Source: an uncultured Bacteroidales bacterium
Lineage (GTDB): Bacteria > Bacteroidota > Bacteroidia > Bacteroidales > P3
Direction of reading: 5' to 3'
DNA: 64,000 bases
Assembly (NCBI GenBank): GCA_900314925.1
Contig: OMXC01000006.1
Span: forward strand, 1 to 64,000
Shown: positions 2,882 to 60,375 of the stretch, piece by piece
Numbering within the stretch: position 1 is the stretch's first letter
How the letters are laid out: every line of letters starts with the position of its first letter
Notes under the pieces: model-generated
Told to the model about the DNA's origin: nothing
The model's database searches: none
Seen by the model: the letters and a program-made list of their open reading frames with translations, nothing else
Made by a program: the position numbers and the translations under genes

Positions 2882-3110
2882 GTGTCGCATATCAATCGGT
2901 TTTGAAAACGGGTGAAAAGAGTGTCGCAAGGGCCAATCGATTTTGAAAACGACTGAAAAGAGTGTCGCGAAGGCCAAATGATTTTGAAAACGGGCAAAAA
3001 GGGTGTCGCGAGGGCCAAATGATTTTGAAAATGGCTAAAAAGAGTGTCGCAAGTCTCAATCAGTTTTGAAAACGGCCAAAAAGAGTGTCGCAAGGGTGTT
3101 TTGAAATTGA
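2882..3110. repeat. 41-bp direct tandem repeat, about 5.5 copies
   Basis: Units start at 2882 (39 bp), 2921, 2962, 3003 and 3044 (41 bp each), with a partial unit from 3085. Each begins GTGTCGCAAGGGCCAA, continues with an ATTTTGAAAACG core and ends in an A-rich AAAAGA. Units differ at several positions, so the array is old or under drift. There are no spacers, so it is not CRISPR. 41 is not a multiple of 3 and neither strand holds a believable gene. With the terminator and promoter that follow, it fills the 359 bp between the protease gene and obgE. Confidence 0.88.
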
Positions 3111-14197: not shown

Positions 14198-16780
14198 TTA
14201 CTCTTCTGTTGTATTAGTATCGCCAGCCTCGGTATTATTGCTTTCGGCCTGCATTTTTTCTTCTTCCATGCCTTCCGCACCCGTCACCTCGGCTTCCTCG
14301 TCCTCAGTGGGCACCTTGGTGATGGAGGCAATGTAGTCCTTGCCGCGCAGGTCTATGAGCTTCACACCCTGTGTGGCGCGGCCCAGCACGCGCAGGTCGG
14401 CGACCTTCATGCGTATGGTGATGCCGGAGCGGTTGATGATCATCAGATCCTCGTCCTCCGTGACATTCGTCACAGCCACCAGCGGACCAGTCTTCTCCGT
14501 TACCTGCATAGCCTTCACACCCTTGCCGCCGCGGTGCAGCGTGGCGCGGTATTCGCTCAGGGCGCTGCGTTTGCCGTAGCCGTGCTCCGTGACCACCAGC
14601 AGGTTCTCCTCCTCGCTCGGCAGGCACAGCATGTCGATGGCGGCATCGTCCTCGCCGTCAAGGTCCATGCCCTTCACGCCGCTCGCTCCGCGTCCCATAG
14701 TGCGGAACTCCTTCTCCGGGCATATCATCACCTTGCCCTTCTTCGACGCTATCAGCATGTAGCTCTCGCCGTCGGTCAGGCACGCCGTCAGCAGCTCGTC
14801 GCCTTCGCGGATGCCGATGGCTATGATGCCGTTCTGGCGCGGACGCGAGTAAGCCTCCAGTGTGGTCTTCTTCACCACACCGTTCTTCGTGCACATCACT
14901 ATGTAGTGGTTGCCCACATACTCAGCGTCGCTCAGCGTCTCCACGTTCACGTAGGCCTTCACCTTGTCGTCGGGCTCTATGTTGATGCAGTTCAGTATCG
15001 GGCGTCCCTTGGTGTTCTTCTCACCCTCAGGCACCTCGAAGGCGCGCATCCAGTAGCAGCGACCCTTCTCCGTGAACAGCAGCAGGTAGTTGTGGTTCGT
15101 GCACGTGAAGATGTGCTCCACGAAGTCCTCGCTCCTCACAGCACTGCCCTTCGAGCCCACTCCGCCGCGGCTCTGCGTGCGGTATTCCGTCAGCGGCGTG
15201 CGTTTGATGTAGCCCTTGTGGCTGATGGTGATGACCACCTGCTCGTCGGGTATCGTGTCCTCGATGCGGAAGCCCGCGGCATCATACTTGATGGCCGTGC
15301 GGCGCTCGTCGCCGTACTTCTCGCGAAGCTCCTGCAGCTCGCCCTTGATGACCTGCATCAGCACGTTGTGGTCGCCAAGTATCTCCTTGCAGCGCTCTAT
15401 GAAACGCATCTTCTCGTCATACTCGTCCTGCAGCTTCTGGTGCTGCAGACCGGTGAGCTGCGCCAGGCGCATGTCGACGATGGCGCGAGCCTGCAGGTCG
15501 CTGAACTGGTAGCGGTCCATCAGCCCCTGGCGTGCCTCGTCGGGAGTCTTGCTCGCGCGGATCAGGGCCACGATCTCGTCGATGATGTCTATGGCGCGCA
15601 GCAGACCCGCCAGTATGTGGGCACGCTTCTCGGCCTCGGCCATATCGAAGCGCGTCCTCCGCGTGACGACCTCCTCGCGGTGCTCGATGAAGTAGCCCAC
15701 AAGCTCCTTCAGGTTAAGCAGCTGCGGACGCCCGTGCACCAAGGCTATGTTGTTCACAGCAAAACTGCTCTGGAGCTCCGTCAGCTGGTACAGCTTGTTC
15801 AGTATCACATTAGGCACCACATCGTTGCGCAGCACGTAGACCACGCGGATGCCGTCCTTGTCGCTCTCGTCGCGGATGTCGAGGATGCCCTCAATTTTGC
15901 CCTCCTTGGCCAGGTTGGCGGTCTTCTTGATCATCTCGCTCTTGTTGACGCCGTAGGGTATCGTCGTCGCCACGATGACGTTGTGCCCCTTCGCGTCCTC
16001 TTCTATCGCCGTGTCGGCACGCAGTATGATGCTGCCGCGACCAGTGGTGTAGGCCTCGCGCACCCCGTTGTAGCCGTAGATGGTGCCGCCCAGCGGGAAG
16101 TCGGGAGCCTTGATATACTGCATCAGCTCCTCTATCGTGATGTCAGACACCCACTTGCCGTCCGTCTCCGACTTGTGGCCCTTGTCGATGTAGGCCATGC
16201 AGCCGTCCAGACACTCGCGCAGGTTGTGCGTCGGCATATTGGTGGCCATACCCACGGCGATGCCGTTGCTGCCGTTGACCAGCAGGTTCGGTATCTTGGC
16301 AGGCAGCACACTCGGCTCCTCACCCTCGTTGTCGTAGGTGGGCACCATGTCCACAGTGTCCTTGTCGATGTCAGCCACCAGCTCGTTGCTGATCTGCTTC
16401 AGGCGCGCCTCCGTGTAACGCATGGCAGCCGGCGAGTCGCCGTCGATGCTGCCGAAGTTGCCCTGCCCGTCAACCAACGTATAGCGCATCGACCAGTCCT
16501 GCGCCAGGCGCACCAGGGCGCCGTAGATGCTTGAATCGCCGTGCGGGTGGTACTTACCCATGACGTCACCAACTATGCGGGCCGACTTCTTGGTGGGCGT
16601 ATTGTACAGAATGCCGTTCTCGTTCATCGAGTAGAGGATGCGGCGGTGCACAGGCTTGAAGCCGTCGCGCACATCCGGCAGGGCTCGCGCCACGATGACA
16701 GACATGGCATAGTCGATATAGGCAGTCTTCATCGTCTGCTCTATATCAACGCGTGTGATTTTTTCATTGTCGGATACCAT
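14198..16780 (-). CDS. gyrA: DNA gyrase subunit A
   Basis: Breaks and reseals DNA in the A2B2 gyrase that introduces negative supercoils. The 860-aa protein has the catalytic tyrosine at Y122 (MRYTEARL), the quinolone pocket [14 protein letters not shown] at 78-91, and a C-terminal beta-pinwheel with a GyrA box of the form [10 protein letters not shown]. The last ~35 residues are acidic ([15 protein letters not shown]). The residue aligning with E. coli Asp87 is Gly; Ser83 is retained. The start at 16780 gives the usual N-terminus. The overlapping ORFs on the other strand are shadows. Confidence 0.97.
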
Positions 16781-16856: not shown

Positions 16857-16924
16857 CGATTTTTTTTCCATCTGTACATCCTCGCACCCCACTTTTTTCA
16901 CTTTTCTTTCAACAGCCCGACAGG

Positions 16925-16980
16925 AAATGAGAAAGAAAAAATGAGAAATGAAAAATGAGAAATGGGAAATGAAAAATGAT
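16925..16980. repeat. Heptanucleotide array, 8 units (AAATGAG type)
   Basis: Eight contiguous 7-base units, mostly AAATGAG, AAATGAA, AAATGGG and AAATGAT, with one AAAGAAA. The register is kept without a break for 56 bp. The same unit family recurs at 38585-38612 and 44066-44114. Confidence 0.9.
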
Positions 16981-16993
16981 TAAATGCACCCTC

Positions 16994-17092
16994 CTCGGCC
17001 CCCCTTCGGCCCTCCTACGGCCCCTGTACGGCCTTCCACTGAAGAACGGCCGAAGGGGGTCCGTAGGGGCTCCGTAGGGGCTCCGTGTCGGA
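16994..17092. repeat. Period-11 dyad array, 9 units
   Basis: Nine contiguous 11-base units, e.g. TTCGGCCCTCC and TACGGCCCCTG on the left, ACTGAAGAACG at the axis, and GCCGAAGGGGG and TCCGTAGGGGC (twice) on the right. The right units are approximate reverse complements of the left ones, so the whole can fold into a long hairpin. The segment 17027-17074 is identical in reverse complement to 37570-37617. Confidence 0.9.
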
Positions 17093-17304: not shown

Positions 17305-18711
17305 CTAAAAGCCGGGCAGCGACAGCCAAAGGGTTGGCAGCATCAGCAGGAAGCCGACGACGATGAGGCCGACAATGAAGCGCCACACCCATTTGAGCCA
17401 TGTGCCGTAGGGGATGCGGGCGATGCCCAAAACACCTATCAAGACACCGCTTGTCGGCGTGAGCATGTTGGTAAAACCGTCGCCGAACTGGAAGGCCAGC
17501 ACCGTGGTCTGCCGTGAGACACCTATGAGGTCGGCAAACTGGGTCATGATGGGCATGGTGAGGGCCGCTTTGGCGCTGCCGCTGGGCATGACGATATTGA
17601 GCAGGGTCTGGAAGACATACATGACGCCGAGCGAGGCCACCTCGCCGGTGTGCGCCAGCGAGCGGCTGAGGCCGTAGAGGAGGGTGTCCATGATGCGGCC
17701 GTCGCGCAGTATGAAGATGATGCCCGAGGCAAGACCCACGACGAGGGCTGCGGAGAGGATGTCCTTGCAGCCGGCGAGGAAGAGCTTGGCGATGTCGTCA
17801 GCCGTCTGGCGGTCGATGATGCCCGCCAGGATGCCCATGGCCAGGAAAAGGGCCGAGATCTCGGCTATGTACCAATCCCACGCGAGCACACCTACGACAA
17901 GGGCGACGATGGTGAGCAGCAGCAGGATGAGTATCAGGATATGGCGGACGGTGAGCGTGGACTGCTCGGTCGAGGAGGCGCGCTCGCGCCAGTAGTCGTC
18001 GAGTTTGTGCACGGGACTGCGGTCGGGCTTAGCTTTCACGCGGGCGGCATACCAAAGGACGAAGGCTATGCCTATGACTGTCAGCACCACCCAGCAGAAG
18101 AGGCGGTATTCGAGACCCGAGAAGAGCGGTATGCCGGCGATGCCCTGCGCTATGCCGACAGTGAAGGGATTGAGCATGGCTCCGGCAAAACCCACATGGG
18201 CAGCCACATAGCACATGCAGACGCCCACGATGCTGTCGTAGCCCATCTGGATGGCCAGCGGGATGAACACCACGACGAAGGCTATCGTCTCCTCGCTCAT
18301 GCCGAAAACGGCGCCGAAAAGGCTGAAGAGCAGCATGACGAGGGTGATGATGATATTGTTCACCCCCAGCTTGCTGACAAGCTTGTAGCGGCTCAGGCGT
18401 TGCACCCGGCGCAGGAAAGCCATCACGCCGACGTCGATGGCGTGGCTGTTGTTGAGTATCCAGAAGGCGCCGCCGACCATGAGGATGAAGATGATGATGT
18501 CGGCCTTGTCCACGAAGCCGTTGAACAGGGCGCTGAAGACCTGCCACGTCTGCGGCGCGGCGTCGACGCGATGGAAGGAGTCGTTCAGCACCACCTCTCT
18601 CCCACCCTCCACGACACGGGTGTATTCGCCTGCCGGCACCACCCAGGTGAGAACAGCGGCCAAGACGATGAGGCCGAAGACTATGGTGAAGGTATGCGGT
18701 ATTTTCTTCAT
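17305..18711 (-). CDS. YfcC family membrane transporter
   Basis: A 468-aa polytopic carrier with about 11-12 hydrophobic segments. It begins KKIPHTFTIVFGLIVLAAVLTWVVPAGEY, the characteristic start of YfcC-type proteins (C4-dicarboxylate/basic amino-acid anaerobic carriers). Conserved features include FGMSEETIAF in the middle and MPSGSAKAAL with LTPTSGVLIG in the second half, which resemble paired re-entrant substrate loops. The substrate is uncertain: family members have been linked to dicarboxylates and amino acids. Its ATG overlaps the stop of the CYTH gene (ATGA), and it is the last gene of the operon. Confidence 0.85.
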   Translation of the reverse strand: MKKIPHTFTIVFGLIVLAAVLTWVVPAGEYTRVVEGGREVVLNDSFHRVDAAPQTWQVFSALFNGFVDKADIIIFILMVGGAFWILNNSHAIDVGVMAFLRRVQRLSRYKLVSKLGVNNIIITLVMLLFSLFGAVFGMSEETIAFVVVFIPLAIQMGYDSIVGVCMCYVAAHVGFAGAMLNPFTVGIAQGIAGIPLFSGLEYRLFCWVVLTVIGIAFVLWYAARVKAKPDRSPVHKLDDYWRERASSTEQSTLTVRHILILILLLLTIVALVVGVLAWDWYIAEISALFLAMGILAGIIDRQTADDIAKLFLAGCKDILSAALVVGLASGIIFILRDGRIMDTLLYGLSRSLAHTGEVASLGVMYVFQTLLNIVMPSGSAKAALTMPIMTQFADLIGVSRQTTVLAFQFGDGFTNMLTPTSGVLIGVLGIARIPYGTWLKWVWRFIVGLIVVGFLLMLPTLWLSLPGF

Positions 18712-25683: not shown

Positions 25684-25837
25684 TACGCCCTCGATATGGA
25701 GTTGGTACGGCATTTCTTCAGTAGTTCTTCAGTAGTATTTCAGTGGTCCACTGAAGAAATACTGAAGAAATACTGAAGAACTACTGAAGAAATGACGGAG
25801 GGGATACGGTGGGGAGACGGAGGGACGCCGAGAAGAG
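25684..25837. repeat. Period-11 dyad array, 14 units (ACTGAAGAAAT type)
   Basis: Fourteen contiguous 11-base units. Left-arm units are TACGGCATTTC, TTCAGTAGTTC, TTCAGTAGTAT and TTCAGTGGTCC. Right-arm units are ACTGAAGAAAT (three times), ACTGAAGAACT, GACGGAGGGGA, TACGGTGGGGA and others. The axis lies near 25747, so a stem of over 40 bp with a tight turn is possible. It sits between divergent pfp and the TolC gene. Confidence 0.92.
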
Positions 25838-37556: not shown

Positions 37557-37655
37557 GATAGAGCCGGTACGGAGCCCCTACGGACCCCCTTCGGCCGTTC
37601 TTCAGTGGAAGGCCGTAGAACGGCCGAAGGGGGGCCGAAGAGGGGCCGTAGGGGG
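37557..37655. repeat. Period-11 dyad array, 9 units
   Basis: Nine contiguous units, including TACGGAGCCCC, TACGGACCCCC, TTCGGCCGTTC, an axis unit TTCAGTGGAAG, then GCCGTAGAACG, GCCGAAGGGGG, GCCGAAGAGGG and GCCGTAGGGGG. Its 48 bases at 37570-37617 are the exact reverse complement of 17027-17074. It ends 7 bp before the stop codon of the next minus-strand gene. Confidence 0.92.
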
Positions 37656-37661
37656 ACGGTG

Positions 37662-38642
37662 TCAGCGGAGGGTGTGCTTGAGGACTTTCTCGTAGCCGTG
37701 GAAGGAGCGCCTGGTGCCGTCGGTGAAGTGGAAGGTTATGGAGTTGATACGCATGAACTTGATGCGGCCGCGGTCGTTCCAGAAGAGCTCGTCGAAGGTG
37801 TACTGCGCCGGCGATTCGGGCGCTATGGGGCCCATGCATCGCATGGTGCGCACGGTGCGGTGGAACTTGTCTTCTTGCACCTGGCCGCGGTCGTTGTATG
37901 GCGCGACGTTGAATTCGAGCATGGAGATGGTCTTGCCGAAGGGGTTGTAGAGGTTGAGTTCGAGGCCGAACATGTACTCAGAGCGCGCTGTTTTCACGTT
38001 GAGTATGAATATCTGGTCGCGGTTCATGCGCTGTTTGGCCTGTGCTATCTCTTCGGCGCGCTGGCGGCTGACGGTCTCGAGGGAGTCGGCAGTCAGCGAG
38101 GCCTGTATGGAGTCGGCCTCGATGCGGAGGGCGCGTGCGATGGCGTCGAGGGAGTCGAGCTGCTGCCGGAGGAGGGAGTCCTGCCGCAGTGTTTCGTCGC
38201 GCTGTCTGATGGTGGCGAGGCGGAGACGGCGGTGGTCGTCGTTGGTGAGGAAGGCGCCCCACTGCGCGAGCTGCTGGAGGGCGGCGAGGGTGAGGGTCTG
38301 CTCGGGGCCGTCGCCGATGGCCACATGGAAGACGACGGGCCACTGGTCGGAGGGCAGGAAGCTGTAGCCGTACCAGTGGAGGGGCAGGTAGTTTTGAGTT
38401 TTTAGTTGTGAGTTTTGAGTTTTTAATTGTGAGTTGGTGTCATCAACCCCTGACTCATAACTCCTGACTCCTAATTCATAAGGGAGGTAGATGGTTGCGA
38501 GGGAGGAGTCGACGTAGGTCCAGCGCAGGAGCTGGAGGAAGCGTGCGTTCCAGTAGGCGGAGTCGGTCTGCGCTGAGAGACTGGAAATGAGAAATGAGAA
38601 ATGAGAAATGAGAAGGAGGAGTAGTATGAGCGGTTTTTTCAT
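37662..38642 (-). CDS. Exported protein of unknown function carrying repeat-derived segments
   Basis: 326 residues; no family recognised. The signal peptide (MKKPLILLLLLISHFSFLIS) has its hydrophobic core encoded by four AAATGAG heptamers. Residues of about 55-88 are an in-frame repeat-derived insertion (TNSQLKTQNSQLKTQ region) flanked on both sides by YLP. A helical segment follows (ETLRQDSLLRQQLDSLDAI to EEIAQAKQRMN), then a C-terminal beta domain (FILNVKTARSEYMFGLELNL, EDKFHRTVRTMRCMGP). The C-terminal part looks like a DUF-type periplasmic domain with no known role. polA lies 100 bp upstream on the same strand. Confidence 0.72.
   Translation of the reverse strand: MKKPLILLLLLISHFSFLISSLSAQTDSAYWNARFLQLLRWTYVDSSLATIYLPYELGVRSYESGVDDTNSQLKTQNSQLKTQNYLPLHWYGYSFLPSDQWPVVFHVAIGDGPEQTLTLAALQQLAQWGAFLTNDDHRRLRLATIRQRDETLRQDSLLRQQLDSLDAIARALRIEADSIQASLTADSLETVSRQRAEEIAQAKQRMNRDQIFILNVKTARSEYMFGLELNLYNPFGKTISMLEFNVAPYNDRGQVQEDKFHRTVRTMRCMGPIAPESPAQYTFDELFWNDRGRIKFMRINSITFHFTDGTRRSFHGYEKVLKHTLR
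38392..38490. repeat. 99-bp in-frame heptanucleotide insertion with flanking direct repeats
   Basis: GAGTTTT/TAGTTGT-type heptamers run from about 38392 to 38446. An inverted set of TAACTCC/TGACTCC-type heptamers covers 38450-38481. The insert is bounded by GGCAGGTAG (38383-38391) and GGGAGGTAG (38482-38490), which match at 8 of 9 positions. 99 bp is 33 codons, so the reading frame is kept. Confidence 0.8.
38585..38612. repeat. Heptanucleotide array, 4 perfect AAATGAG units, coding
   Basis: Four identical heptamers in register, encoding on minus the hydrophobic core of the signal peptide of the 37662-38642 gene. The same unit occurs in the non-coding arrays at 16925 and 44066. Confidence 0.92.
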
Positions 38643-38646
38643 GAGC

Positions 38647-38736
38647 AGTGATGAGTGATAAGTGATAAGTGATGAGTGATAAGTGATAAGTTGTGAACTA
38701 AAACTTTAAACCTTAAACCTTAAACTTTAAACCTTA
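38647..38736. repeat. Heptanucleotide arrays, two adjoining unit families
   Basis: First six units alternate AGTGATG and AGTGATA (38647-38688) plus AGTTGTG. From 38702 come AACTTTA and AACCTTA units (five). They fill the whole spacer between polA and the downstream gene. Confidence 0.9.
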
Positions 38737-44003: not shown

Positions 44004-44018
44004 TTTAAGGTTATTTAA

Positions 44019-44114
44019 ACAATTAACAATTAACAATTAACAATTAAAAATTAACAATTAACAAATTCTCATTTTTCATTTCTCATTTTTCATTTCTCAT
44101 TTTTCATTTCTCAT
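44019..44114. repeat. Heptanucleotide arrays between the M17 and ABC genes
   Basis: ACAATTA-type units fill 44019-44065, followed without a gap by alternating CTCATTT and TTCATTT units to 44114. The array fills the spacer and includes the stop codon of the ABC exporter gene (44111-44113). Confidence 0.92.
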
Positions 44115-46088: not shown

Positions 46089-46144
46089 GAGTTATGAGTT
46101 ATGAGTTATGAGTTATGAGTTAGGAGTTAGGAGTTTTGAGTTAC
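46089..46144. repeat. Heptanucleotide array, 8 units (GAGTTAT type)
   Basis: Four GAGTTAT, two GAGTTAG, one GAGTTTT and one GAGTTAC in unbroken register (56 bp). It fills the spacer between DUF721 and recF. It contains the recF stop codon and encodes the last RecF residues (TQNS). Confidence 0.93.
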
Positions 46145-49108: not shown

Positions 49109-49119
49109 TAAAAACTAAA

Positions 49120-49192
49120 CACTTAACACTTCTCACTTCACACTTCTCACTTCTCACTTCTCACTTCTCACTTCTCACTTCACACTTACCAC
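49120..49192. repeat. Heptanucleotide array, 10 units (CACTTCT type)
   Basis: CACTTAA, CACTTCT, CACTTCA, five CACTTCT, CACTTCA and CACTTAC in unbroken register. It reaches the stop codon of the next minus-strand gene (49192-49194). Confidence 0.93.
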
Positions 49193-50169
49193 TAAAGCGT
49201 CGCCTGCAGCTCCTCGTAGGCGCCCACGAAGTGCATGATGGGCCTCACGTGGTTGAAGTACCAGGTGAGGTTCAGCTCCGGTATACGCACCATGCTCGCG
49301 GCGTCGCCCAGACGGCTGCTGATGACATCCACGGTCTCCTGTATGGCCAGCTCCTGGCACACGATAGTGAGCCCCTTCAGCGGCACGATGTCGAAGTCCA
49401 CGCTGTCGCGCGCCACTATCATCACCGTGGGCAACAGGTAGTAGTTCACGCCGTTGGAGTCGCGCAGCATGGGCAGGAAGTCGTCGGAGCGTATGAAATC
49501 GAAGATACCCATGTCGAAGAACACCTGCTGGTACACCTCGCGGGTGTTCTCGTTGGCGTGCCACACACGGCGGCAGTCGGCCACCTTGCGGTAAGCCTCC
49601 ACCATCCGCAGGTAGGCCTCGTACTGCTCCTCGTTGCACGTGTCCTTCACGTGGAGCTCCACCGAGCGCATGTCGTGCCCCAGCTGGCTTATCTTGTTCT
49701 TGTAGTGGCTCATCACGCTCACCAGGAACTTGTTGCTCTTGTGCCCTATCTTGTCCTTGATGCCGCGCACGATGCGCTCCAGTCGCTCCTCGGTGGCGCC
49801 CACCGTCAGGGCGTTGACGTAGCAGTCGAGGATCTGACGCTTCATCGGGTCGCTGGCCGTCGCCAGCGCCGTCTTGGCACGCTTGAGTTCCTTCTGGTAG
49901 CTCGGCTCCATGTTCAGCAGCAGGCGCCAGTATTTGGGCTTCTGCCTGGCAACAATCGAGCGCACAAAGTTGTGGTAGCTGTGGCTGTCGCTCTCTCGCT
50001 CGAGGAAGCCCGTGCCGGGCACTCCGCTGTTGATGTAGCGGCGTCCGCTGTAGTGGTGTTCCCCACCGTCGCGCACACCGAAGTCCGTGTAGTAGAAATG
50101 GTTGCTGAGATTTATAAACAGCCCCTCAGTGACCTTGAACCGTTTGTATGGGAAAATTGCCATAATCAT
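49192..50169 (-). CDS. Protein with DUF4236-like N-terminus, otherwise unknown
   Basis: 325 residues. The first ~55 residues resemble DUF4236: a basic strand, EGLFINLSNHFYYTDFG, then SGRRYINSGVPGTGF, matching the LNLSxxG..VxxGxxGxxxxxGxPGTG pattern. The remaining 270 residues are helical and charged (LKRAKTALATASDPMKRQI, HVKDTCNEEQYEAYLRMVEAYRKV) and end with a more beta-like section (TVMIVARDSVDFDIVPLKGLTIV). No known domain is recognised there. No signal peptide is visible, so it is probably cytoplasmic. An ATG at 50163 is an alternative start two residues later. Confidence 0.68.
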   Translation of the reverse strand: MIMAIFPYKRFKVTEGLFINLSNHFYYTDFGVRDGGEHHYSGRRYINSGVPGTGFLERESDSHSYHNFVRSIVARQKPKYWRLLLNMEPSYQKELKRAKTALATASDPMKRQILDCYVNALTVGATEERLERIVRGIKDKIGHKSNKFLVSVMSHYKNKISQLGHDMRSVELHVKDTCNEEQYEAYLRMVEAYRKVADCRRVWHANENTREVYQQVFFDMGIFDFIRSDDFLPMLRDSNGVNYYLLPTVMIVARDSVDFDIVPLKGLTIVCQELAIQETVDVISSRLGDAASMVRIPELNLTWYFNHVRPIMHFVGAYEELQATL

Positions 50170-51690: not shown

Positions 51691-51761
51691 CACATTTTTT
51701 TGCATCCGGAGAAAAAAAATTGAAAAAAAAGCCATTTTCCACCCCTCCGGCGCGTATCCGG

Positions 51762-51880
51762 TACGGCATTTCAACGATACTTCAACGATACTTCTTCAGT
51801 AGTTCTTCAGCGTGGCACTGAAGAACTACTGAAGAACTACTGAAGAAATGCCGTAGGGACTCCGTAGGGAAGCCGTAGGA
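51762..51880. repeat. Period-11 dyad array, 10-11 units
   Basis: TACGGCATTTC, AACGATACTTC (twice), TTCAGTAGTTC, TTCAGCGTGGC, ACTGAAGAACT (twice), ACTGAAGAAAT, GCCGTAGGGAC, TCCGTAGGGAA and a partial GCCGTAGGA. The axis lies near 51816. It combines units of the 25684 array (ACTGAAGAAAT) with those of the 16994 array (TCCGTAGGG). Confidence 0.92.
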
Positions 51881-51924: not shown

Positions 51925-51957
51925 GCCGTTTAGTAGCCGTTTAGTAGCCGTTTAGGT
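51925..51957. repeat. Period-11 array, 3 units (GCCGTTTAGTA)
   Basis: GCCGTTTAGTA twice, then GCCGTTTAGGT, in exact register. Same period as the larger array 45 bp away, with the heptanucleotide array between them. Confidence 0.88.
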
Positions 51958-52434: not shown

Positions 52435-52494
52435 AGCTGTGAGATGTGAGTGATGAGTTTTCAGTAGGCTGACGCGGCCTGCGCAAGCCACTTA

Positions 52495-52536
52495 AAACTC
52501 AAAGCTTAAAGCTTAAAGCTTAAAACTAAAAACCAA
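52495..52536. repeat. Heptanucleotide array upstream of alaS
   Basis: AAACTCA, three AAGCTTA, AAACTAA and AAACCAA. It ends 14 bp before the alaS ATG, inside the leader. The region 52435-52494 contains GTGAG/GATGAG-like fragments of the same type. Confidence 0.85.
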
Positions 52537-60181: not shown

Positions 60182-60280
60182 ACGGCGCCTCTACCGCCCC
60201 GCCACGGACTTCCTACGGCCTTTCTATCGCCTCTGGCCGATGCACGGCCGAACCAAGGCCGAGGAGGGGCCGAAGGGACT
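60182..60280. repeat. Period-11 array, 9 units, GC-rich
   Basis: ACGGCGCCTCT, ACCGCCCCGCC, ACGGACTTCCT, ACGGCCTTTCT, ATCGCCTCTGG, CCGATGCACGG, CCGAACCAAGG, CCGAGGAGGGG and CCGAAGGGACT. The register holds although the units are more diverged than at the other loci. The dyad is weaker. It lies between the tRNA terminator and the T9SS-protein gene, in a spacer (60106-60375) with nothing else recognisable. Confidence 0.82.
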
Positions 60281-60375
60281 CCATCAAAAGCGCTGACCAT
60301 CAACAAAATAGCGCACAACTGTACATATACAACACTGAAAGACAAACAGATACAAAACACACAAAAAGCCGTCTG

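Follow-up and report, generated by a model that had tools for sequence, protein, structure and literature searches.

Arrays of 11-bp words about a dyad axis in a Bacteroidales genus, a candidate landing track or boundary element found chiefly between divergent promoters

The dispersed palindromic repeats known from bacteria usually have a conserved sequence as their defining feature and are interpreted as parasites driven by RAYT transposases. The unit of the REP/BIME/REPIN elements is an imperfect palindrome or stem-loop of 20-40 bp, and CRISPR loci are composed of identical repeats with unique spacers. In plasmid centromeres of the parC type, iterons of about 11 bp, which offer one protein contact per helical turn, form two clusters around a centre. 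The BrickBuilt element of Porphyromonas gingivalis has 23-nt direct repeats, a leader, a tail, and small terminal inverted repeats, and is present in 19 copies per genome (PMC4596501). Heptamer direct repeats of the TAACTGA type have a period of 7 and are located mostly just upstream of start codons (PMC4679880).

The arrays presented in this study were found in a 64-kb stretch of DNA from an uncultured Bacteroidales bacterium (contig OMXC01000006.1, positions 1 to 64,000; hereafter, the window), and they lie outside the REP/BIME, BrickBuilt MITE, CRISPR, and Rfam families. Similar to REP/BIME/REPIN elements, they are dispersed, intergenic, palindromic, and numerous, with species-specific sequence; however, their units are 11-bp tandem words, no GTAG/CGTC tag family was noted, several carriers lack a Y1/RAYT gene, and the arrays prefer divergent gaps and persist at orthologous positions while their words are replaced. 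They share with BrickBuilt the order Bacteroidales, the intergenic location, and the tandem units (PMC4596501), whereas their words are 11 nt long and arranged about a central dyad, leader and tail are absent, and half of one genome holds 73 of them. The heptamer repeats also form intergenic short-period arrays of patchy distribution but have a period of 7 and no dyad (PMC4679880). Unlike CRISPR repeats, the words are contiguous and spacer-free, and unlike parC-type centromeres, the arrays occur in many chromosomal copies by housekeeping genes, with species-specific words and no ParR-like partner shown. At the Rfam 15 gathering score, only a tRNA-Arg was matched in the window, and none of the arrays. 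No description of 11-bp dyad arrays in this group was found among the open-access papers searched. The analysis suggests that they represent a DNA landing track or boundary element of a kind not described before.

Each of the five window loci listed in the preliminary description contains 11-base words that follow one another without gaps and in register. Array 1 (16991 to 17090, plus orientation) is a type B array of 9 words with the axis TTCCACTGAAGAA, and it is flanked by the gyrase subunit A gene (14198-16780, minus strand) and a dcuC-like gene (17305-18711, minus strand). Array 2 (25705 to 25835, unstranded) is of type A with the loop GGTCC, and ACTGAAGAA(A/C)T words flank its axis (near 25747) on both sides; it occupies the divergent gap between a phosphofructokinase gene (minus) and an outer-membrane efflux gene (plus). 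Array 3 (37565 to 37655), which is of type B in minus orientation, lies 8 bp past the stop of the minus-strand gene at 37662-38642 and upstream of a peptidase M13 gene (minus). Array 4 (51759 to 51880, unstranded), of type A, has ACTGAAGAACT as its inner word, ATCGTTGAAGT in the left arm, and CCGTAGGG as its outer word; it is located in the divergent gap between a flavin disulphide oxidoreductase gene (minus) and the Cpn10 (GroES) gene (plus), and a short direct period-11 run of GCCGTTTAGTA (51925 to 51955, plus) adjoins it. Array 5 (60182 to 60285, unstranded) is a degenerate dyad of CCGTAGG/GGCCGA-type words between the tRNA-Arg and a CHU_C (type IX secretion) protein gene (plus). The neighbours of the window arrays are housekeeping genes (gyrA, phosphofructokinase, peptidase M13, flavin disulphide oxidoreductase, and Cpn10).

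Arrays 1 to 4 form stable folds both as RNA (z = -3.8, -7.2, -5.7, and -6.7) and as DNA (z = -3.1, -10.7, -5.9, and -7.3), which agrees with the dyads first seen at these loci, although the arms are inexact rather than exact reverse complements. The dyads had been limited to these four loci; the array at 60182 is also a dyad, with a weaker fold (RNA z = -3.0; DNA z = -1.5, equalled by 14 of 200 shuffles). Both word classes of the preliminary description, CCGTAGGG and ACTGAAGAA, are present, but they are ordered and not freely mixed, and ATCGTTGAAGT at the 51762 locus is a third word.

The genome of the window (G000) is a Bacteroidales MAG of 2.4 Mb with a GC content of 58% in the DNA read. An array detector built from the words of this genome found 73 arrays in 1.264 Mb, about half of it, and none of them is inside a gene as called by a simple self-trained Markov model, in line with the intergenic placement reported initially. 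Among 443 successive same-arm core spacings, 438 (98.9%) are multiples of 11 and 417 are exactly 11, so the register holds computationally. Double-word patterns matched 194 times for CCGTAGGG and 210 times for ACTGAAGAA in the whole genome, and the reversed control did not match. Lag analysis of 464 kb gave 9 strong segments at period 11, compared with none in Markov-simulated sequence; periods 10 and 13 gave none and period 12 gave one. Apart from a separate period-7/14/21 family, the lag peaks were at 11 and its multiple 22. The arrays are therefore not unique to the contig of the window; they are found across the genome and, as described below, the genus.

The preliminary description had overlooked both the association with divergent promoters and the persistence at orthologous sites with word change. 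Among G000 gaps that measure 150 bp or more after subtraction of the array, 46 of 71 divergent ones carry an array, compared with 20 of 175 that are tandem or convergent (odds ratio, 14; p = 1.3e-16). Divergent arrays are on average midway between the flanking genes, and TAnnTTTG boxes (the Bacteroidetes -7 box) around them point outward in 75 cases versus inward in 7, with no such box within the arrays. Of 37 type A arrays, 32 are in divergent gaps. Type B arrays are found also close behind stop codons, where about 9 of 11 are oriented with transcription, a weak tendency. The preference recurs in G088, another genome of the genus (5 of 8 arrays in divergent gaps), and is not visible in G028, where dyads are mainly in tandem or convergent gaps.

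These positions bear on the reading of the arrays as RNA hairpins, i.e., bidirectional terminators or mRNA 3'-end stabilisers that halt antisense or read-through transcripts. The very stable RNA folds, the type B arrays and some arrays of G012 near stop codons, and the weak tendency of type B arrays in tandem gaps to follow the direction of transcription are all in its favor; however, most arrays are between outward promoters, where there is no sense transcript, and no Rfam family is matched. A T-tract within 22 nt, as in an intrinsic terminator, was found at 9 of 138 array ends, and the mismatches between arms show no GU-type (wobble) excess; these two results argue against RNA hairpins and intrinsic terminators, and we consider this reading possible yet disfavoured and quite unlikely.

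Each array is built from 11-bp words, up to about 7 in each arm, about a single axis of one of two types: type A, CAGT-5 nt-ACTG, or type B, TTCCACTGAAGAA. In word order, ACTGAAGAACT adjoins the axis and TCCGTAGGGGC and its variants (GCCGTACCGGG and GCCGAAGGGGG) are further outward; by class, ACTGAAGAA words are inside near the axis and CCGTAGGG words outside. Word identity is mostly lost by word 7. The G at position 4 occurs in 100, 100, 100, 99, 92, 94, 85, 62, and 47% of words 1 to 9 from the axis in G000, and other word phases have 8-45% G. Its enrichment ranges from p = 1e-84 at word 1 to p = 4e-3 at word 9, and in the relative RGIG6226 it persists at words 11 to 14, where word identity is gone. 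Such axis locking over about nine turns (11 to 14 in the relative) indirectly supports the earlier proposal that every 11-base unit presents the same helical face. As read from the sequence, it is conservation in phase and does not by itself demonstrate a protein contact; common ancestry of the words could partly account for it instead.

Conservation does not extend to pairing between the arms. Two arms of the same array match at 42.4 of 61 positions versus 43.3 of 61 for arms taken from different arrays, i.e., without excess, and same-array arms match worse than cross-array arms at words 4 and 5. The arms of G000 type A arrays often differ at word 4 (GCCGTACCGGG versus GCCGTAGGGAC), a pattern that would fit avoidance of perfect palindromes; in contrast, perfect palindromes are present in G028. 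A wedge model gave no additional bend for the arrays (0.973, compared with 0.971 for shuffles and 0.35-0.65 for an A-tract control), and intrinsic curvature was rejected as an explanation. The extrusion of long hairpins, as proposed initially, is physically possible, but arm complementarity is not the conserved property. The corresponding reading is that of cruciform or supercoil sinks, in which the long imperfect palindrome extrudes and absorbs negative supercoils between divergent promoters and no dedicated protein is needed. The strong DNA hairpins and the perfect 45-bp arms in G028 are consistent with it, as is the location between divergent promoters, where twin-domain supercoiling is expected (PMC4469952). 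However, extrusion requires neither an 11-bp period nor a phase-locked G, complementarity within arrays does not exceed that between arrays, and the perfect palindromes of G028 are mainly outside divergent gaps. We therefore regard cruciform sinks as possible, yet disfavoured and unlikely.

Orthologous gaps were compared in two relatives, RUG377 (G008) and RGIG6226 (G094; from sheep rectum), with approximately 85-88% nucleotide identity to G000 in aligned DNA. Of 22 gaps with an array in G000, about 20 also hold a period-11 array in a relative, a count that includes one array judged by eye under the automatic threshold and one of a different word family; of 33 gaps with no array in G000, none holds one in a relative. 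Because the RGIG6226 loci were chosen for carrying an array, the test runs in one direction only for that genome. In all 15 gaps seeded by an array of one or the other relative, G000 has an array. The orthologue of array 4 is an array in RUG377 (L035), beside which the GCCGTTTAGTA run is also kept. No clean empty site was seen among the orthologous gaps, and one gap resembles a partial deletion with array remnants.

Within these persistent sites, the words turn over. At one divergent site the word family is swapped, with a TTCGACCATCG dyad in RUG377 (L214:8153-8363) and GTTCTTCAGTA in G000 (L111:16796), and words of both families coexist in register inside single RUG377 arrays. Arrays of RGIG6226 hold a 44-bp (4 x 11) insert with the register kept, and the 44-bp unit GCCGTCGCGGAGGCGACGGAACTACGCCCCTCGGCGGAAGAAAT is amplified at L056:501-757, L079:6403-6623, and L053:1706-1992 of that genome, again without a break in register. 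Unit number and word order differ between orthologous arrays. Two of the three species have homogenised axis loops, GCNGC in 31 of 40 G000 arrays and CAAAC in 48 of 52 RGIG6226 arrays; 11 different loops were found in RUG377. The variation in unit number and word order would also be given by a purely mutational origin, in which functionless arrays arise at quasi-palindromes through slippage and template switching; nevertheless, local slippage alone would not explain why many species have the specific 11-bp step with differing words, why dispersed loci share words, and why arrays persist at orthologous positions, and such an origin is very improbable.

The genus belongs to the ruminant gut, and the dyads of its further species consist of different 11-mers: ATCGAAGAACA in G028, with perfect 45-bp arms, a mirrored variant word, and near-identical copies of about 95 bp; CCGTAATACTA and TAAAAGAACAG in G012; and ACTGAAGAACA in G088. 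In G001, runs of TTGTTCTTCGG were found. The GTTCTTC core recurs at period 11 at least five times in 19 of 120 genus genomes, and 70 genomes from eleven sister genera have one occurrence or none; the axis geometry GTTCTTC-11-GAAGAAC is present in 24 of the 120 genus genomes; the distribution within the genus is patchy. The extended dyad pattern was absent from 294 other genomes of the order, and a sequence-agnostic scan of about 290-307 kb, all of it from 24 other Bacteroidales families, found no period-11 arrays. The maximum in the genus was 536 matches of GTTCTTC-4-GTTCTTC in G119. Several matches in G119 and G088 are at contig ends, so assemblies are probably broken by arrays.

The strongest rival explanation is that the arrays are selfish dispersed palindromes (REP/BIME- or MITE-like), spread by a transposase or by recombination and surviving where insertion is harmless, which would be the untranscribed stretch between divergent promoters, with conversion between copies homogenising loops and arms. 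The many copies, all of them intergenic, the loops homogenised within species, the near-identical copies in G028, and the patchy distribution all fit. On the other hand, about 20 of 22 orthologous sites are occupied with no clean empty site, and the word family can switch at a site while the array remains. Nor was the transposase link suggested initially found for the Y1/RAYT class: the PF01797 domain has a single copy in G000 and is missing from the array carriers G008 (88% complete), G098 (83%), G028, and G088 (97% each), and RAYT/Y1 was rejected as the driver. We consider selfish dispersal somewhat doubtful.

The reading that we tentatively prefer, and find quite possible, is that the arrays are DNA-level architectural elements at which a protein would read the helix once per turn and insulate neighbouring transcription units. 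We infer the protein and its function from the observed geometry, position, orthologous persistence, word turnover, and phase-locked G. The absence of a GU-type excess, the rare T-tracts, the silence of Rfam, and the lack of unusual curvature and of excess arm pairing point to readout at the DNA level once per turn and not to RNA pairing. From the dyad axis, the words would form a track outward to both sides, placed in DNA that is untranscribed or marks the boundary of transcription units, chiefly between back-to-back promoters. A sequence-reading protein would load symmetrically from the axis and make one contact per helical turn at the core G of position 4, usually in the context CCGTAG, CTGAAG, or TCGAAG, and the resulting nucleoprotein block would separate the two promoters topologically and transcriptionally. 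Words could then drift or be exchanged, since the protein would read no more than the 11-bp step and a minimal core. In a more specific and doubtful version, the arrays are chromosome-wide, promoter-insulating nucleoprotein tracks on which a genus-specific protein would polymerise outward from the dyad, making one minimal contact every 11 bp, which would let each species rewrite the words without changing position or step. The functional claim is limited by the use of MAGs, half of one genome, simple gene calls, and a detector built from G000 words, and by the G028 dyads without divergent preference.

In these arrays, the length (11 bp), the symmetry, and the address between divergent promoters are conserved while the sequence turns over, as expected for the readout of a single helical face. 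The insulation of divergent promoters in bacteria and the concerted rewriting of about 70 or more dispersed sites are thereby made testable.

Carriage of the arrays by phages was rejected; eight viral contigs match GTTCTTC three times at period 11, and none of them has the array dyad. The only viral contig with mixed 11-bp words (CGTTCTTCCTT, CGTTGTAAGTC, and CTCTTATGCTG) is L261 (IMGVR_UViG_3300037400_002597), where the words are at 414-560 and come after a terminator-like T-run; this contig is possibly a phage or prophage of the genus.

Two other kinds of repeat were observed in the window. Separate AT-rich arrays of period 7/14/21 are located at 16924-16979, 38584-38691, 44018-44114, 46089-46143, 49119-49193, and 52490-52533; period-7 segments number 73 in 864 kb of G000 and are also found in other species of the genus. 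At 2892-3096, a 41/82-bp tandem repeat in five copies lies between two plus-strand genes.
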